A stretch of 64,000 bases of DNA from Chrysiogenes arsenatis DSM 11915 (GTDB lineage Bacteria; Chrysiogenota; Chrysiogenetes; Chrysiogenales; Chrysiogenaceae), in the NCBI RefSeq assembly GCF_000469585.1, contig NZ_AWNK01000006.1, positions 24,519 through 88,518 on the forward strand, read 5' to 3'. Under the pieces are notes generated by a model that did no database searches, was not told the DNA's origin, and worked only from the letters and a program-made list of their open reading frames with translations. The translations under genes and the position numbers were made by a program. Shown here piece after piece: positions 11,280 through 33,084 of this stretch; within the stretch, counting starts at the first letter, position 1, and the number at the start of each line of letters is the position of its first letter.

Positions 11280-11324
11280 CCGCTGAATGGATTCGGCGGT
11301 AGTCGTGAGACGGCAAGCCAAGGA
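11280..11324 (+). promoter_or_regulatory. Flagellin leader hairpin with two ANGGA motifs
   Basis: CCGCTGAA (11280-11287) pairs with TTCGGCGG (11292-11299), one pair being a wobble, leaving the four-base loop TGGA. The loop displays ATGGAT. A second ANGGA (AAGGA, 11320-11324) is the ribosome-binding site itself. A hairpin-loop GGA plus one at the Shine-Dalgarno site is the classic layout of CsrA translational repression, known for flagellin mRNA in Bacillus. Binding is inferred; no csrA or fliW lies in this window. Confidence 0.45.
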
Positions 11325-11334
11325 AGGTGATGTC

Positions 11335-14010
11335 ATGATTATCTATCACAATCTCCCCGCCATGAACACCATGAACTCCCTCGCCAAGACGAATGGGTCG
11401 ATGCAGAATACCATTCAAAGCTTGAGCAGTGGCTTGCGTATCAATAAAGCTTCTGACGATGCCGCTGGGCTGGCCATATCGGAGAAAATGCGTGGCCAAA
11501 TTCGTGGACTCGATCGCGCCGTTAGCAACGCGCAAGACGGCATTTCCCTGATTCAAACTGCCGAAGGGGCGCTCAACGAAACCACCTCCATCCTGCAACG
11601 GATGCGCGAACTGTCGGTACAAGCTTCCAACGGAACCCTCACCTCCAACGACCGATCTGAAATCCAAAAAGAGGTCGTGCAACTGCGCGACGAAATCAAC
11701 CGCATTGCTACCTCTACCCATTTCAACCAAAAACAACTCCTTGACGGCAGTGCTACTGGCCGCTGGTCGTCTGATGCCAAAGACCTGAATGTGCTCTTGC
11801 GTGGATCGCTGGCCGGCATCAATGCTCAAGGAGAACTGACTTCAGCCGAAGGGAACTACGTCGTTGACATCGAAACCCGTGCTGGCAAGGGGCAAATCCT
11901 GAAAACCAACATCTTCACCAAAGTATCGGATGAAGATTTGAAAGATTTGGGGATAGTGAGTAATGCCCTCACTATGCAAAATCCAGACTCAACGGCGAAT
12001 GCTTTTGCTATCAACGGCCCTGAGTTGGCGCGGTCTTCTGATACGCTGGATAAAGTAGCGAATTTTTATGACGCCAACGGTCGCTTTCTCCTTGACACCA
12101 CGCAGCAGATCACGATTACGCAGGGAGATGGTAAGACAGCGGTTTTTACCATCGAAAAAACCGATACGCTCGACTCGCTTTCCACAAAAATCAGCGACGC
12201 CATCACCGATGACCTTGGGCAAGGGGAATTGGTCTATGGTGACGTTCCCGGAGCACGCTTTCTTGGTGGGCACCCTGGGATCACGGGAGATGCCATTACC
12301 GACATTGTAAACGGCTTAAAATATGGTTGGCTCGAAGGATCGATGGCGCGCATTAAAGAGTTTTACGGCCTAGAAGGGCAAGGGCATGATCTAGAAATCC
12401 ACGTCTACAATAAAGCACAATTCGGCACGATAGCGCTGATTGCCGCTAGCGGAAGCGGGGTAGCTCCTTTCCCAGCTGATACCTTTAAATTCTACATTGA
12501 TGCCGCGGATTACCACCCACACACATGGCCAGATGGCAGTGTTGACCATTTAACGGCTGGACTTGGCGAAGGTATTGCGGCGCGCGTAACTGCGCACGAA
12601 ATGGTACACGCCACTATGGGGGCACAAATGGACTGGCTTGGTGCCGGCTCATTGCCGACATGGTTCCGCGAAGCGACGGCTGAACTTATCCATGGTCGGG
12701 CTGAAGGCGTTGTATCTGCTATGGAAGCGGGAGCTCGGACTGGAACCCTCGCTGATGCTCAGGCAATTCTTGCCAGTGATTGGAAGAACTGGGCAGGTGC
12801 TGCTGTTAACGATGAGTACACCTCCGCCTATTTTACTGGCGTCATGCTGCATGAGGCAGCGATGGCGCAAGATCCCACTGGTGGCGGGATGAAAGCCATA
12901 CTTAATGACTTGAAAAACGGCTCGACGCTTGATGCGGCTATCGCGAATAATACTGCTCATGCAAATACCGCTGCTTTCCTTACCGATGTTGACACTAATG
13001 GTGCCGCGAAACTGAAGGCTCTCTATGATAACATTAAAGCTGACACAACTGGTGATACTGCGGCAATAGGTGGTTTCTTACTTGATGGTGGGACAGTGTA
13101 CACCGCGACGAATGTCATTGATGTCAGTGCCGCTACCGACTTCGACGGTCAACCGATTGACACCTATGGCTGGAATATTATCTGGCCCGCGAACATGTCT
13201 AGCTTTGCCGAAAATCCAAGCTTCGATCCATTTACCGTTAGTGACTCTTACACCACAGGAACAACTAAAGCCACTGCGCACTCTGTACTTGGCACGATGG
13301 TTGTTCATTCGGCGATTGCCGGAAAAAATGGTGAGTTGAGTTTCTCCGGTGACGAAGAAGTCCTGCGCGCCCTCGGGCTTTCAGAAGTACAGGCTGCCAT
13401 CGACAATACCTATACCGTTTCAGTAAAAGATGCCCACACAGGGAATGCCGTCGTAGGACGCACAGCCTATAGCGGCGAAGAACTTAACGGCATCATCCAT
13501 TCAAATCTTGATTTACGGCTCGGCCTGAATACCGCTACAAGTGTTGCATGGAATGCTACTGAGGCCAAATATACGTTCACTGGCGAAGAGACTTCTTTTA
13601 AAATTCACCTCGTCGACCGCGCGCTTGATTTACAAATCGGTGCCAATGATGGCCAAAAGATGAACGTCAGTATTGGTAACCTCTCCGCCAAAGCACTTGG
13701 AGTGGATAACATTCTGGTTTCTAATCAGAAAGCTGCCATGGGGACGATTACCAAAGTAGATAAAGCGCTTGCGTATGTCTCTTCGCAACGGGCAGCGCTT
13801 GGTTCGCTGCAGAATCGCCTTGACCACACGATCAACAGCTTGAGTGTCGCCAACGAAAACCTGACCGCTTCAGAAAGTCGCATTCGCGATACTGATGTAG
13901 CAAAAACGATGACCAAGCTCGTCCGCGATCAGCTGCTATCGCAAGCAGGAACCTCAATGCTGACGCAGGCGAATCAGTTGCCGCAAGGGGTAATGCAGTT
14001 GTTACGGTAA
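11335..14010 (+). CDS. fliC: Proteolytic flagellin (flagellinolysin)
   Basis: An 891-residue flagellin, about twice the usual size. Residues 1-140 ([19 protein letters not shown], then [14 protein letters not shown] and NQKQLLDGS) are the normal D0/D1 helices, and the last 130 ([24 protein letters not shown]) the matching C-terminal helices. Between them is a very large variable region. Around residues 305-585 it holds a metallopeptidase-like domain with His421-Glu422-x-x-His425 (HEMVH) and a downstream WFREATAE, whose Glu446 or Glu450 could be the third zinc ligand. This matches the flagellinolysin family reported in 2017, in which the filament surface is enzymatically active. The ATG at 11335 has AAGGAAGG upstream; the frame is open slightly earlier but the family N-terminus starts here. 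Further segments (585-750) are probably additional surface domains. Substrate is unknown. Confidence 0.9.
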
Positions 14011-27545: not shown

Positions 27546-28423
27546 CGGCGTCCGCCGATAAGCTTTTTCATGAAAGAAGAAAAGTTTGAGGGTGATGTTT
27601 CGATGACATCGGACGATGCTTCTCCCAACAGCGACTTGACAACCTGGGCATAGCACTTACTCGCTGGCGAAGCCGGAAACGCCTCTGAGACAAGTTTTTG
27701 CTTTCGCACGCATTTGAGGAGCGTTTCATCCTGAATGATATATCCCAAGAAAGGGACTTCACATTTTAAAAACCGTTTCAGCATCATAGACATCTTCATG
27801 TGAACCTGCTGCGCATCAGCAGGATTTTGCGCCATGTTCACCAATAACTTTAAGTGAGTTTTTTCATATTTGACCATCATCAGCTTGAGCATGGCGTAGG
27901 CATCGGTAAAAGCCGTAGGTTCGGGCGTCGTGATAACCAGAATTTCGTCAGCAGCAACCAGAAAATTCGTCACAACGCCAGATATTCCCGCCCCCGTGTC
28001 GATCAACATGATATCAAAATCCTCCAACTCTTCCGCTTGTTGCAAAAGAGAGGTGAATTGCGATTCTTCTAAGCGGGTAAGTTCTTCAAGACCACTGCCA
28101 GCCGGAATAATCTGCATGCCGCCTGGGCCAGCGACTAACGTATCGCGCAATTGGCATCGCCCCGCCAACACATCCCCGATGTTATATGAAGGGGTAATAC
28201 CAAGCAATATATCCATGTTGGCCAGCCCTAAATCGGCATCAAATACCAGCACTTTTTGACCAGCCTTGCAAAGCCACCACGCAAGATTGGCAACCGTATT
28301 CGTTTTCCCCACGCCACCCTTGCCGCTGGTAACCGCAATCACTCGCCCACGGCGAAGTGATTCTTTTTTGCGTGCCTGTGCCATACGCCGCAATGAAGCC
28401 GCTTGATCGGTAGGTTGACTCAT
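27542..28423 (-). CDS. flhG: Flagellar number regulator FlhG (FleN, MinD-like ATPase)
   Basis: A 293-residue MinD/ParA-type ATPase that limits the number of flagella by antagonising FlhF. The deviant Walker A reads SGKGGVGKTN near residues 33-42. DADLGLANMDILLG near 62 and LIDTGAGIS near 140 complete the nucleotide site. An N-terminal stretch with QAASLRRMAQ resembles the DQAxxLR segment known to activate FlhF. The CDS overlaps flhF and the small membrane gene by four bases each. The flhF-flhG pair points to polar flagella. Confidence 0.94.
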   Translation of the reverse strand: MSQPTDQAASLRRMAQARKKESLRRGRVIAVTSGKGGVGKTNTVANLAWWLCKAGQKVLVFDADLGLANMDILLGITPSYNIGDVLAGRCQLRDTLVAGPGGMQIIPAGSGLEELTRLEESQFTSLLQQAEELEDFDIMLIDTGAGISGVVTNFLVAADEILVITTPEPTAFTDAYAMLKLMMVKYEKTHLKLLVNMAQNPADAQQVHMKMSMMLKRFLKCEVPFLGYIIQDETLLKCVRKQKLVSEAFPASPASKCYAQVVKSLLGEASSDVIETSPSNFSSFMKKLIGGRR

Positions 28424-29814
28424 GACTCACCTCCGGCACCAAATAAAATATCGTAGAACGTTGTCGCCTCTGCCGGCATGAGGTCATTGGGAACATCCTG
28501 CCCATTCGTGAAATATGAGACGGGGAGCCCTTTTTTCGCCAATGCGCTGAATATCGAACCGCACGAAGCGGTTTCGTCCAGCTTCGTCACAATCACGCGG
28601 TTAATTTCAATCGCCTGAAAACGGTCGATGATATCGGTCAGGTTCGCCAAGTTGGTCGTGGCACTCAATACCAGATGCACCTCAACCTTGACGCGATCTT
28701 CGCGCAGAAACCGAACTAAATCCTCTATCTGCCGCGTATCATTATGCGAACGGCCTGCCGTATCGACCAGCACAAGATCGCGATCGAAATTTTTCCGCAA
28801 CGCCAGCATCAAAGAGTCGTTTTGATTGACAACTTCCACGGGGGCATTAATGATATTTGCATAGGTTTTTAGCTGCTCTATGGCCGCAATACGGTAGGTA
28901 TCAAGCGTAACTAATCCTACCGTAACCCCTTTGTTAAGAAGGTAGTCGGCGGCCAGTTTGGCGATGGTCGTTGTTTTGCCCACGCCAGTTGGCCCCACCA
29001 GCGCAACTACTTTTTGATTGACGCCATCGACCTCTATCGGCCCTGCCATAGGCACCAGTTTTTTGACTAACTGCCGCACATGTCGCCAGACCGTCTCTTG
29101 ATCGCTATTGGCACCGAGTTTAGCCCGCAATGCGTCGACCATTTTGCGCGAAATATAGCGATCAAGTCCAATCGCAGTGAATTTATCGTAAAGTTCGGCG
29201 TACAACTGTTCCGAATACGACGGAGAAACTGAATATTTTTCCGATGCAATCTGCCGCAAAGTTTTCCGAAGCTGAGTGATCTGCTCCTGCTGTTGGCGCA
29301 ATTCGCGTGACGCAAGGCTTTCGTCGCGCAAAAGCTCTTTGATTTCCTTGATCTCCTGCATCATGCGGCTTAGTTCGCCTGCCGATGCCTCCTGGGCAGT
29401 CGTAATCGCCGATGGTCGCGAAGATACAGCAGCACCCCTTGCAGAAGCACCCGCGGTGGGCGTTGTGTTTTGAGCCGCTTCCTTAAAGGCGTCTAGCAAA
29501 CGCTGCACATCAAGGTCTTCGTGACCTTCGGTGGAAGAGGCTACCATTTTCCCTTTGGGAGAATACGTGGACGGCGGCGCAGACGCCGCGCTGGAAGATT
29601 TTTTTTCCCGACTCGTAAAAGGTTCAGGCTTGTTGGTCGCCGTGCTGGCATCGATGGCCGCCGTAACCTCTATGAGTGGGCGCGAAAAAATCCCGAAACT
29701 CCCTGGCTTGGTAATTTTTTTCGTCGAAAGAATCACCGCATCAGGACCAAGATCTTTTTTGATCCGTTCCATGGCTTCTTGCATATCAAAAACTTCATAG
29801 CGTTTTACTTGCAT
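28420..29814 (-). CDS. flhF: Flagellar placement GTPase FlhF
   Basis: A 464-residue SRP-type GTPase that marks the pole where the flagellum is built. The N-terminal basic segment (MQVKRYEVFDMQEAMERIKKDLGPDAVIL, in two parts) is the typical FlhF start. A poorly conserved Ser/Ala/Pro-rich region covers about residues 60-150. The NG domain follows with G1 GPTGVGKTTT near 273, DTAGRSHND near 350, and TKLDE near 410. Length is within the family range (370-500). Its start is 3 bases after the flhA stop. Confidence 0.95.
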   Translation of the reverse strand: MQVKRYEVFDMQEAMERIKKDLGPDAVILSTKKITKPGSFGIFSRPLIEVTAAIDASTATNKPEPFTSREKKSSSAASAPPSTYSPKGKMVASSTEGHEDLDVQRLLDAFKEAAQNTTPTAGASARGAAVSSRPSAITTAQEASAGELSRMMQEIKEIKELLRDESLASRELRQQQEQITQLRKTLRQIASEKYSVSPSYSEQLYAELYDKFTAIGLDRYISRKMVDALRAKLGANSDQETVWRHVRQLVKKLVPMAGPIEVDGVNQKVVALVGPTGVGKTTTIAKLAADYLLNKGVTVGLVTLDTYRIAAIEQLKTYANIINAPVEVVNQNDSLMLALRKNFDRDLVLVDTAGRSHNDTRQIEDLVRFLREDRVKVEVHLVLSATTNLANLTDIIDRFQAIEINRVIVTKLDETASCGSIFSALAKKGLPVSYFTNGQDVPNDLMPAEATTFYDILFGAGGES

Positions 29815-29817
29815 CTA

Positions 29818-31965
29818 TCACCCTTTCCGATCTTCCAGACCAATAGTCCCCAGCGATTCGATATTGACGTTTTCCGCTATTTCGCTGTGAGCGATAACGG
29901 AAACCTTGGGCGCATAGCGCACAATCAGCCGTCGCAACGCGGAACGAACTGCCGGCGAAACCATCAGCACAGGCGGAACCTGCTGCTCGATAAGCTTATC
30001 TGCCGTTTGGATCAGGTTGACGAGGAACATTTGCGCTTTATGAGGGTCTATTACAATAACACGACCCTGCTCACTTTTCTGTATTGCCTCAGCCATCATC
30101 TGTTCCAGACGAGGGTCGATCGTCAAGACGCGCATGACATTATTTTCATCGGTATAGAGCTTAGATACCTGACGCGACAACCGACCGCGAACATAGTCGG
30201 TCAAGATATCAGGATCCTTCGTGGCCGTCGCATAATCGCCAAGCGCTTCAAGAATAGTAAGCAGGTTCCGTATAGAGATCCGTTCGTCTAAAAGATTTTG
30301 TAAAACCCGTTGTACTACACCCAAAGGGAGGAGTCCCGGAACGAGATCAGTCACCACGCTGGGATGCGTCTTCTTGATGTTATCTAACAGGTGTTGCGTT
30401 TCCTGTTTCCCCAGTATTTCGCTGGCGTGTTGCTTAATGATCTCCCCGATGTGAGTAGCAATCACCGTTCCAGCATCGACCACCGTATAGCCAAACATCT
30501 GCGCTTCATCATAATGCTCAGCATCGACCCACACTGCTGGAAGGCCGAACGCCGGTTCAATAGTAGGAGTCCCTGGAATCGTAATTTCGCCACCACCAGG
30601 ATTCATGGCTAAGGATTGGCCTGGATAGACATCCCCTTGGCCTATTTCAATGCCGTCAAGCTTAAAAACATAATCATTTGGCCGTAGCTGAAGATTGTCG
30701 CGAATACGGATTGGTGGAACGATAAACCCAAGGTCGATGGCCGTTTGCTTGCGCAGTGATTTGATCCGATCAAGCAAGTCACCACCTTGTGCGGAATCGA
30801 TGAGCGGAATAACGCCATAACCGACTTCGAGCTCTAGTGCATCCATTTGCAGCAGCTCTTCGACCTCTTCTTCGGCAGTTTTCTTCGCTTCTTCTTCCGC
30901 TACAGGAGCATCTTTTTGTTTTTGCGACTTCCCGACGGCACTCAGGTTACCATCTTCATCTCGGGCACCAACTTTCCCGATACTGACCATATACGCCAGA
31001 AAGCCAATCAGTGCGGCCAGAATCAAGAAAGGCAATGTCGGCATCCCCGGCACAACCCCGAATAAGAAAATAATAACTGCCGCAACCCACAGTGCTTTGG
31101 GGTTGATAACGATCTGCTGCACAATATCTTCGCCAAGGTTCGACTCACTCGCGGCGCGCGTCACCACCATACCGACGGCGGTGGAGACAATCAGTGCCGG
31201 AATCTGTCCGACCAGTCCATCGCCAACCGTAAGGATTGTGTAGACCTCAGCCGCGTCGCTAAAGGACATACCGCCTTGCGCCATACCGATAATCAAACCA
31301 CCCACAATATTGACGACAGTAATAATAATCCCTGCCACGGCGTCGCCCTTGACAAACTTTGACGCACCGTCCATAGCTCCATAAAAATCAGCTTCACGGC
31401 GTATCCGATCGCGGCGGGATTTTGCTTCCATTTCGTCGATCATTCCAGCATTCAGATCCGCGTCGATTGCCATCTGTTTTCCCGGCATCGCATCCAAGGT
31501 GAAACGAGCAGCGACTTCCGCCACGCGCCCCGAACCGTTTGTGATAACCTTAAAGTTAATAATAACGAGAATAAGAAAGACAATAATACCAACAACGTAA
31601 TTCCCGCCTACGACAAATTCGCCAAAAGCCTGAATAACCTCACCCGCCGCCCCTTCGCCATTGGCACCATTCAGCAGAATTGTTCGCGTGGTTGCAACGT
31701 TCAAGGCGAGTCGAAAGAGAGTGATGATCAACAGCACTGACGGGAAGATTGAAAACTCTAAAGGCTCAGTGATATAAAGAGATATAAGAATAATTAGCAC
31801 GGAAGCAGCGATACTGACTGTCAGCAGGATATCAAGCAAAAATGTGGGTACAGGCAACACCATGATGGCAATAATCGACATAATCCCGAACGCGGCAAAA
31901 ACATCAGGGCTTGCCGTGAATTTAAGCAGTTTCATCGCGCTCGTGCGTGGGGATCCAGTTGCCAA
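29818..31965 (-). CDS. flhA: Flagellar type III export component FlhA
   Basis: A 715-residue core of the flagellar export gate. The N-terminal half has about eight membrane helices (IIAIMVLPVPTFLLD near residue 27) and the conserved FHIPEP loop region (FTLDAMPGKQMAIDADLNAG near 155). The C-terminal half is the cytoplasmic ring that binds substrate-chaperone complexes. The listed start is a TTG with GGTGAG upstream; an ATG ten codons further in is an alternative with a poorer ribosome site. Length equals other FlhA (about 690-710). Confidence 0.94.
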   Translation of the reverse strand: MATGSPRTSAMKLLKFTASPDVFAAFGIMSIIAIMVLPVPTFLLDILLTVSIAASVLIILISLYITEPLEFSIFPSVLLIITLFRLALNVATTRTILLNGANGEGAAGEVIQAFGEFVVGGNYVVGIIVFLILVIINFKVITNGSGRVAEVAARFTLDAMPGKQMAIDADLNAGMIDEMEAKSRRDRIRREADFYGAMDGASKFVKGDAVAGIIITVVNIVGGLIIGMAQGGMSFSDAAEVYTILTVGDGLVGQIPALIVSTAVGMVVTRAASESNLGEDIVQQIVINPKALWVAAVIIFLFGVVPGMPTLPFLILAALIGFLAYMVSIGKVGARDEDGNLSAVGKSQKQKDAPVAEEEAKKTAEEEVEELLQMDALELEVGYGVIPLIDSAQGGDLLDRIKSLRKQTAIDLGFIVPPIRIRDNLQLRPNDYVFKLDGIEIGQGDVYPGQSLAMNPGGGEITIPGTPTIEPAFGLPAVWVDAEHYDEAQMFGYTVVDAGTVIATHIGEIIKQHASEILGKQETQHLLDNIKKTHPSVVTDLVPGLLPLGVVQRVLQNLLDERISIRNLLTILEALGDYATATKDPDILTDYVRGRLSRQVSKLYTDENNVMRVLTIDPRLEQMMAEAIQKSEQGRVIVIDPHKAQMFLVNLIQTADKLIEQQVPPVLMVSPAVRSALRRLIVRYAPKVSVIAHSEIAENVNIESLGTIGLEDRKG

Positions 31966-32019: not shown

Positions 32020-33084
32020 TTACATCTTCCCTTTTTGTCTATAAATCTCGCCGAGTATTTCCGCAACCGCCTGATAGAGTTCGTGCGAAATCTCATCACC
32101 CACCTCAAGTGAGTCGTAAAGCTGGCGAGCCAACATCGGATCCTGAAAGATGGGAACGTTATTTTCGATCGCAATATCACGGATTCTTTTGGCAATCAAC
32201 TCCTGCCCTTTAGCGACAATATACGGCGCGCTCTTTTCCGTGGTATCGTATTTGAGCGCGATAGCCAGAAAAATCGGGTTAGTAATAACGACGTCGGATT
32301 TCGGCACATCCTGCATCATCCGCTTCATCACCATTTCACGCTGCATGGCACGAATCTTCTGTTTTACCTCAGGATTCCCCTCTTGCTGCTTATGCTCTTC
32401 TTTTACCTCCTGCTTCGTCATCTTTAACTGCTCGTTATGTTGATATTTTTGATATACAAAATCGATCATACTCACAATGAACATGATAATAATAATGATG
32501 ATCCATACTTTAAAGACAATCCACGCCATAACTTCCAGTGTTTGCATAGGAGTAGCGTTCAATAAGCCGGGAATAACATCAATTTCGGCTTTGGCCACGT
32601 AATACGCAACAGGCCCAAGAACGAACACCTTCAGGAGTGTTTTGATCAACTCCACAAGATTTTTCATGGAGAATTTCTGCATGATCCCTTTGATGGGATT
32701 GAGCTTATCAAATTTTGGAGCAAAGGCCTTCGAACTCCATAAAAGCCCTATTTGCGCCAAGTTGACTCCAAGCGCGACAAGAGTGATCACTAAAAACAAC
32801 GGCCATAAAATACGCGCCATCTCTTTGAGTGCTTGCACAAGGAAAGGGACAATCTCATTGATCGTTGGAAAGGGAGTTTCAGAAAAGTTCAAACGAGCGG
32901 TCATCATATCGGTAAAGCCCGCCAGCATGTAACCACCAAACATATAGAGCGCAACGATCCCCGCCAGCAATACCGCCGTATCACTCAGATCCTTGCTTTT
33001 GGCAACATTCCCCTCTTCGCGAGCTTTCTGCAGCTTTTTCGGGGTAGGCTCTTCGGTTTTTTCTCCATCCGACTCTGGCGGCAT
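32020..33084 (-). CDS. flhB: Flagellar export switch protein FlhB, atypical cleavage site
   Basis: A 354-residue export-gate protein that switches substrate class from rod/hook to filament. It starts with the standard ESDGEKTEEPTPKKLQKAREEG, and has four membrane regions and the KMTKQEVKEEHK cytoplasmic linker. In nearly all FlhB proteins the C-terminal domain cleaves itself at NPTH; here residues 269-272 read Asn-Pro-Ile-Phe, followed by the usual LAIALKYD. Asn269 and Pro270 sit at the same residue numbers as in Salmonella. The two residues after them are changed, so self-cleavage may be slow or absent. The frame is clean and length normal. Confidence 0.93.
   Translation of the reverse strand: MPPESDGEKTEEPTPKKLQKAREEGNVAKSKDLSDTAVLLAGIVALYMFGGYMLAGFTDMMTARLNFSETPFPTINEIVPFLVQALKEMARILWPLFLVITLVALGVNLAQIGLLWSSKAFAPKFDKLNPIKGIMQKFSMKNLVELIKTLLKVFVLGPVAYYVAKAEIDVIPGLLNATPMQTLEVMAWIVFKVWIIIIIIMFIVSMIDFVYQKYQHNEQLKMTKQEVKEEHKQQEGNPEVKQKIRAMQREMVMKRMMQDVPKSDVVITNPIFLAIALKYDTTEKSAPYIVAKGQELIAKRIRDIAIENNVPIFQDPMLARQLYDSLEVGDEISHELYQAVAEILGEIYRQKGKM

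Follow-up and report, generated by a model that had tools for sequence, protein, structure and literature searches.

The window (the whole stretch of 64,000 nucleotides that was analysed) carries a flagellar flhB gene on the minus strand, followed directly downstream by flhA, and a long flagellin gene on the plus strand. The features used in the analysis are as follows.

32020..33084, minus strand: flhB, 354 residues (open reading frame; PF01312, 428 bits; TIGR00328, 390 bits)
32020..32448, minus strand: cytoplasmic domain of FlhB, residues 213–354 plus the stop codon (predicted model)
32269..32280, minus strand: N269-P270-I271-F272, at the site of the NPTH self-cleavage motif, with the predicted scissile bond N269-P270 (sequence and alignment)
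32086..32088, minus strand: S333 of FlhB (alignment; Pro in 97% of FlhB proteins)
29818..31965, minus strand: flhA (TIGR01398, 921.7 bits, over the cut-off of 772)
28420..29814, minus strand: flhF-like gene (name taken from inspection of the sequence and from the order of genes)
11287..14010, plus strand: flagellinolysin, a long flagellin of 907 codons, start codon uncertain (NF033876, 239 bits, over the cut-off of 205)

The match to TIGR00328, the NCBIfam model for flagellar FlhB, spans residues 8–353 of 354 and exceeds the equivalog cut-off of 349.25 bits; the model for the injectisome homologue SctU gave 334 bits, under its cut-off of 358. The context is also flagellar and not that of an injectisome, with an FlhA that scores over its own cut-off adjoining and with flagellin and FliK encoded in the genome. 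The order flhB–flhA–flhF is common to the window and both sister genomes (G001 and G002). FliK retains its switch domain and is followed by FlgD-like and FlgE-like reading frames; loss of FliK was therefore rejected. The whole genome (G000; 2.83 Mb, 22 contigs) was searched with PF01312, which returned this one full-length FlhB and no second.

The minus-strand codons AAC CCG ATT TTT (32280–32269) encode N269, P270, I271 and F272. The full NPTH signature is thus absent, and the catalytic Asn followed by Pro is present on the β1–β2 turn. In the predicted model (mean pLDDT 83, about 92 around the motif), residues 265–269 form a strand, 270–272 a turn and 273–278 a second strand, so that the canonical β1-NPxx-β2 hairpin is predicted to be kept. 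The closest solved folds are the cytoplasmic domains of FlhB, YscU and EscU (E = 1e-10).

Conservation of NPxF within the family and phylum

Both other genera of the family carry NPLF at the motif site. The codons for Leu-Phe differ between these independently sequenced genomes (CTC TTT in G001, CTG TTC in G002), the FlhB proteins are 67–68% identical between genera and the reading frame is intact. Among the 42 other members of the phylum that were examined, 39 have NPTH and three have NPIH. Since NPxF occurs in three genera with different codons, it is fixed in one bacterial family (three of three genera) and is not an error. A second family-specific change lies in the cytoplasmic domain, where residue 333 is Ser, Ser and Thr in the three members. 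That flhB is decaying, or that NPIF is a sequencing error, is accordingly a reading to which we attach next to no weight: the odd residues themselves are all that speaks for it, and it conflicts with the shared NPxF and its differing codons, the intact frame, the identity between genera, the score over the FlhB equivalog cut-off and the surrounding flagellar genes. The preliminary description had the replacement of NPTH by NPIF, its coordinates and its residue numbers right. It had asked whether the variant is fixed in the lineage and whether a second flhB exists, and had named a sequencing error as a possible refutation; fixation was confirmed, the error was ruled out and the only other match in the genome is FlhX, which lacks the motif.

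FlhX (90 residues; G000:C1:411716-411928) resembles the C-terminal quarter to half of FlhB, and its homology to FlhB starts just after the cleavage motif. It scored 102 bits against TIGR00789 (flhB_rel), under the curated cut-off of 117. Like that family it is homologous to the part of FlhB that follows the cut, but it has neither the motif nor a membrane part. The FlhX gene lies away from the flhB–flhA cluster in G000, and in all three genera of the family it stands directly beside glyS, which encodes the β-subunit of glycyl-tRNA synthetase (L002:1474-1746 on G000:C1; L034:1978-2256; L033:16626-17012).

The flagellinolysin has an internal HExxH metallopeptidase domain (AHEMVH) with FREATAE downstream, and belongs with the proteolytic flagellins described in PMC5595980, a paper whose main text does not mention the genera of this family. 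The genome encodes four further flagellins of 872–924 residues. Phylum members with an NPTH FlhB also have long flagellins, of about 770–830 residues, the long flagellins across the phylum spanning 770–924, and the flagellinolysin is found in G001 but not in G002, although both have NPLF. A link between flagellin length and the change in FlhB was rejected because long flagellins occur beside NPTH and because the metallopeptidase form is missing from an NPLF genome; the two are unrelated. The filament subunit of about 891 residues that had been called abnormal does correspond to a real long reading frame (11287–14010), but to a flagellinolysin without connection to the motif.

Motif residues across bacteria

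To place the variant, we took the best FlhB of each of 100 genomes that lie outside the phylum; most families are represented once, and the motif played no part in the selection. Asn and Pro were each present in 100 of 100, Thr in 81 and His in 80, and the exact NPTH was found in 66. The idea that Thr and His are near-invariant was therefore wrong for a broad sample, which reaches beyond the well-studied taxa. His was replaced in 20 proteins, by Arg (6), Glu (6), Phe (3), Thr (2), Ser (1), Leu (1) and Asn (1); these are L038, L040, L051, L102, L105, L107, L116, L122, L127, L129, L131, L135–L138, L145, L146, L168, L179 and L182. Across the 160 aligned FlhB-family sequences, too, Asn-Pro never varied. 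As judged from these alignments, the universal motif in the sample is NP and not NPTH, which we regard as a more useful result than NPIF itself. NPTH is treated in the cited papers as the signature of a self-cleaving export switch; only Asn-Pro is universal here, and about a fifth of the family-level lineages outside the phylum lack His. We did not find this pattern, His lost with Asn-Pro kept, stated in the open literature.

A scan of about 85,000 species genomes with a DNA pattern for D-V-x-x-T-N-P-x-[F/Y]-x-[A/S]-x-A returned 12 stretches; as the context was strict and near genomes were excluded, this is a lower bound. Eleven lie in FlhB-like reading frames, nine of them full length (that of L060 is truncated where its locus ends, and that of L063 is open where its locus begins); the twelfth belongs to an unrelated methyltransferase-like protein. 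NPx[FY] proteins occur in a Nitrospirota metagenome-assembled genome (L060), Latescibacterota (L056), Planctomycetota (L053), Synergistaceae (L063), Motilimonas (L054), Salinicola (L059) and Photodesmus (L058), and in further metagenome-assembled or other genomes (L052, L055, L057, L062, G200, G221 and G104). Like FlhB of the window they keep Asn-Pro and have an aromatic residue for His, mostly with Leu or Ile next, but most are far from its family in the tree. In a tree of 145 FlhB proteins those of the three genera group together firmly, possibly with L060 (NPTF) and L129 (G200, NPIF) as their nearest neighbours, at a support of 89 that is not firm. The remaining NPx[FY] proteins are spread over the tree, so the aromatic replacement of His probably arose several times, many deep forks of the tree being weak.

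Leu directly after the motif is enriched in His-less proteins (16/34 versus 11/126 among all 160 sequences). In the one-per-family sample the contrast between aromatic and non-aromatic residues at this position was not significant (p = 0.21), so the shift from Tyr/Phe to Leu/Ile that stands out alongside loss of His among the NPx[FY] proteins may reflect relatedness. At alignment column 299, Leu occurs in 29 of the 80 His-containing proteins and in none of the 20 His-less ones; contact between this column and the motif is possible, as is relatedness. The FlhB match of L050 (G055:C5:290871-291891) is broken into three frames close to the linker that joins the membrane and cytoplasmic parts, probably through assembly frameshifts, a natural split being the alternative.

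Self-cleavage and the export switch

Our preferred reading, to which we give a probability of roughly 0.77, is that NPIF is a drifted motif in an otherwise ordinary FlhB that has retained self-cleavage and the usual FliK-dependent switch. The side-chain amide of N269 would attack its own carbonyl and break the N269-P270 bond. This cut, on the tight turn between the two β strands, would free the PxF end; once cleaved, the domain would allow FliK to turn export from hook subunits to filament subunits. The Thr and His of NPTH would play an accessory part, tuning rate or shape, and could be replaced by Ile or Leu plus Phe. Cleavage is most likely, perhaps at a slower rate.

Mutants of homologues bear on each position of the motif. 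Asn is essential: all tested replacements in Spa40 of Shigella abolish cleavage (PMC2615192), and N269A of Shewanella FlhB gives no filaments (PMC7771051). Pro is partly so (PMC3189125). The wild-type Shewanella protein, with the natural motif NPEH, is cut, which leaves the third position free (PMC7771051). Xanthomonas HrcU retains cleavage in the T266A and H267A mutants, at an efficiency that is only slightly lower but leaves more uncut protein (PMC3040844). The EscU entries titled as T264A (3bzv) and H265A (3bzx) contain two chains, of 54 and 83 residues, the latter beginning at the Pro aligned with P270 of the window FlhB, and so were cut before Pro. The N262A, N262D and P263A entries hold a single 137-residue chain, and the P263A entry 3c03 also has split chains, matching the partial cleavage reported for P263A.

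The strongest argument for cleavage is evolutionary. All 20 His-less proteins of the sample keep Asn-Pro, so NPIF likely still self-cleaves; on the alignment, such retention would be hard to explain had cleavage been lost in each. Asn-Pro might instead be kept for the turn and not for the chemistry. The analogy with the mutants is also imperfect, as the tested proteins are those of injectisomes and have Ala for His, whereas this FlhB is flagellar and has Phe, and as the Thr and His positions have both changed at once in NPIF. No cleavage assay of any NPxF protein was found in the literature, no reports on FlhB H272A, YscU H266A or EscU H265A were found in the open literature, and a literature search on the flagella of the presumed species brought up nothing useful.

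The most serious rival, which we nevertheless consider improbable, holds that FlhB of this family is uncut or cut too slowly, and that FliK shifts the shape of the intact cytoplasmic domain. FlhB of the family, perhaps along with that of other lineages without His, would then work uncut through a purely conformational switch, and the hydrophobic NPIF or NPLF turn would mimic the shape after cleavage, permanently or reversibly; we regard the combination as equally improbable. It draws on HrcU Y318D, in which late secretion is active without efficient cleavage and the surface shape is thought to matter (PMC3040844), and on the same view of shape as argued for Spa40 and EscU Y316D (PMC2615192). 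FliK reportedly binds cleaved and uncleaved FlhB equally, according to a citation in PMC3542141, and the second family-specific change, of P333 to Ser or Thr, is in the cytoplasmic domain too. Against this, Asn-Pro is retained in every His-less FlhB sampled, the systems described in the cited papers fail to switch when Asn is exchanged for Ala, and proteins with Ala for Thr or His are still cut.

A substitution of FlhX for the cleaved C-terminal fragment, which would make self-cleavage unneeded, is more doubtful still. FlhX is present in all three genera of the family and its homology begins right after the motif, as this proposal would have it. However, when FlhX was approximated by the number of family matches that a genome has, a second match was found in 43 of 80 genomes with a His-containing FlhB and in 11 of 20 with a His-less one (p = 1), and such matches occur in most NPTH relatives of the phylum. 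FlhX thus did not arrive with NPxF, and compensation was rejected for want of association with loss of His.

The preliminary description had gone on from the altered motif to a switch that may work without cleavage or by another trigger. That the variant is fixed in the lineage and that there is no second full-length FlhB, the points it had proposed to check, stand; that loss of Thr and His means a switch without cleavage is not supported, given that both are dispensable in the homologues HrcU and EscU, that Asn-Pro persists in 20 of 20 His-less proteins and that FliK is present.

Comparison with known systems

The NPIF FlhB is a known protein in a form that is fixed in one lineage, and its function is probably conserved. 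It shares with known flagellar FlhB proteins (TIGR00328/PF01312), such as those of Salmonella, Aquifex and Shewanella, the membrane part and cytoplasmic domain, the Asn-Pro on the β1–β2 turn, the flhA neighbour, the length (354 residues) and FliK. It differs from them in Ile271-Phe272 for Thr-His and in Ser333 for Pro, and from its NPTH relatives in the phylum in Leu273, where they have Tyr or Phe. Natural His-less proteins (NPxF, NPxY, NPTE, NPTR) are ready test cases for the role of Thr and His and for cleavage versus shape. The nearest laboratory counterparts are EscU T264A and H265A and HrcU T266A and H267A, which likewise keep Asn-Pro with Thr or His removed; they are single mutants of injectisome proteins with Ala in place of Ile or Phe, and they are still cleaved.
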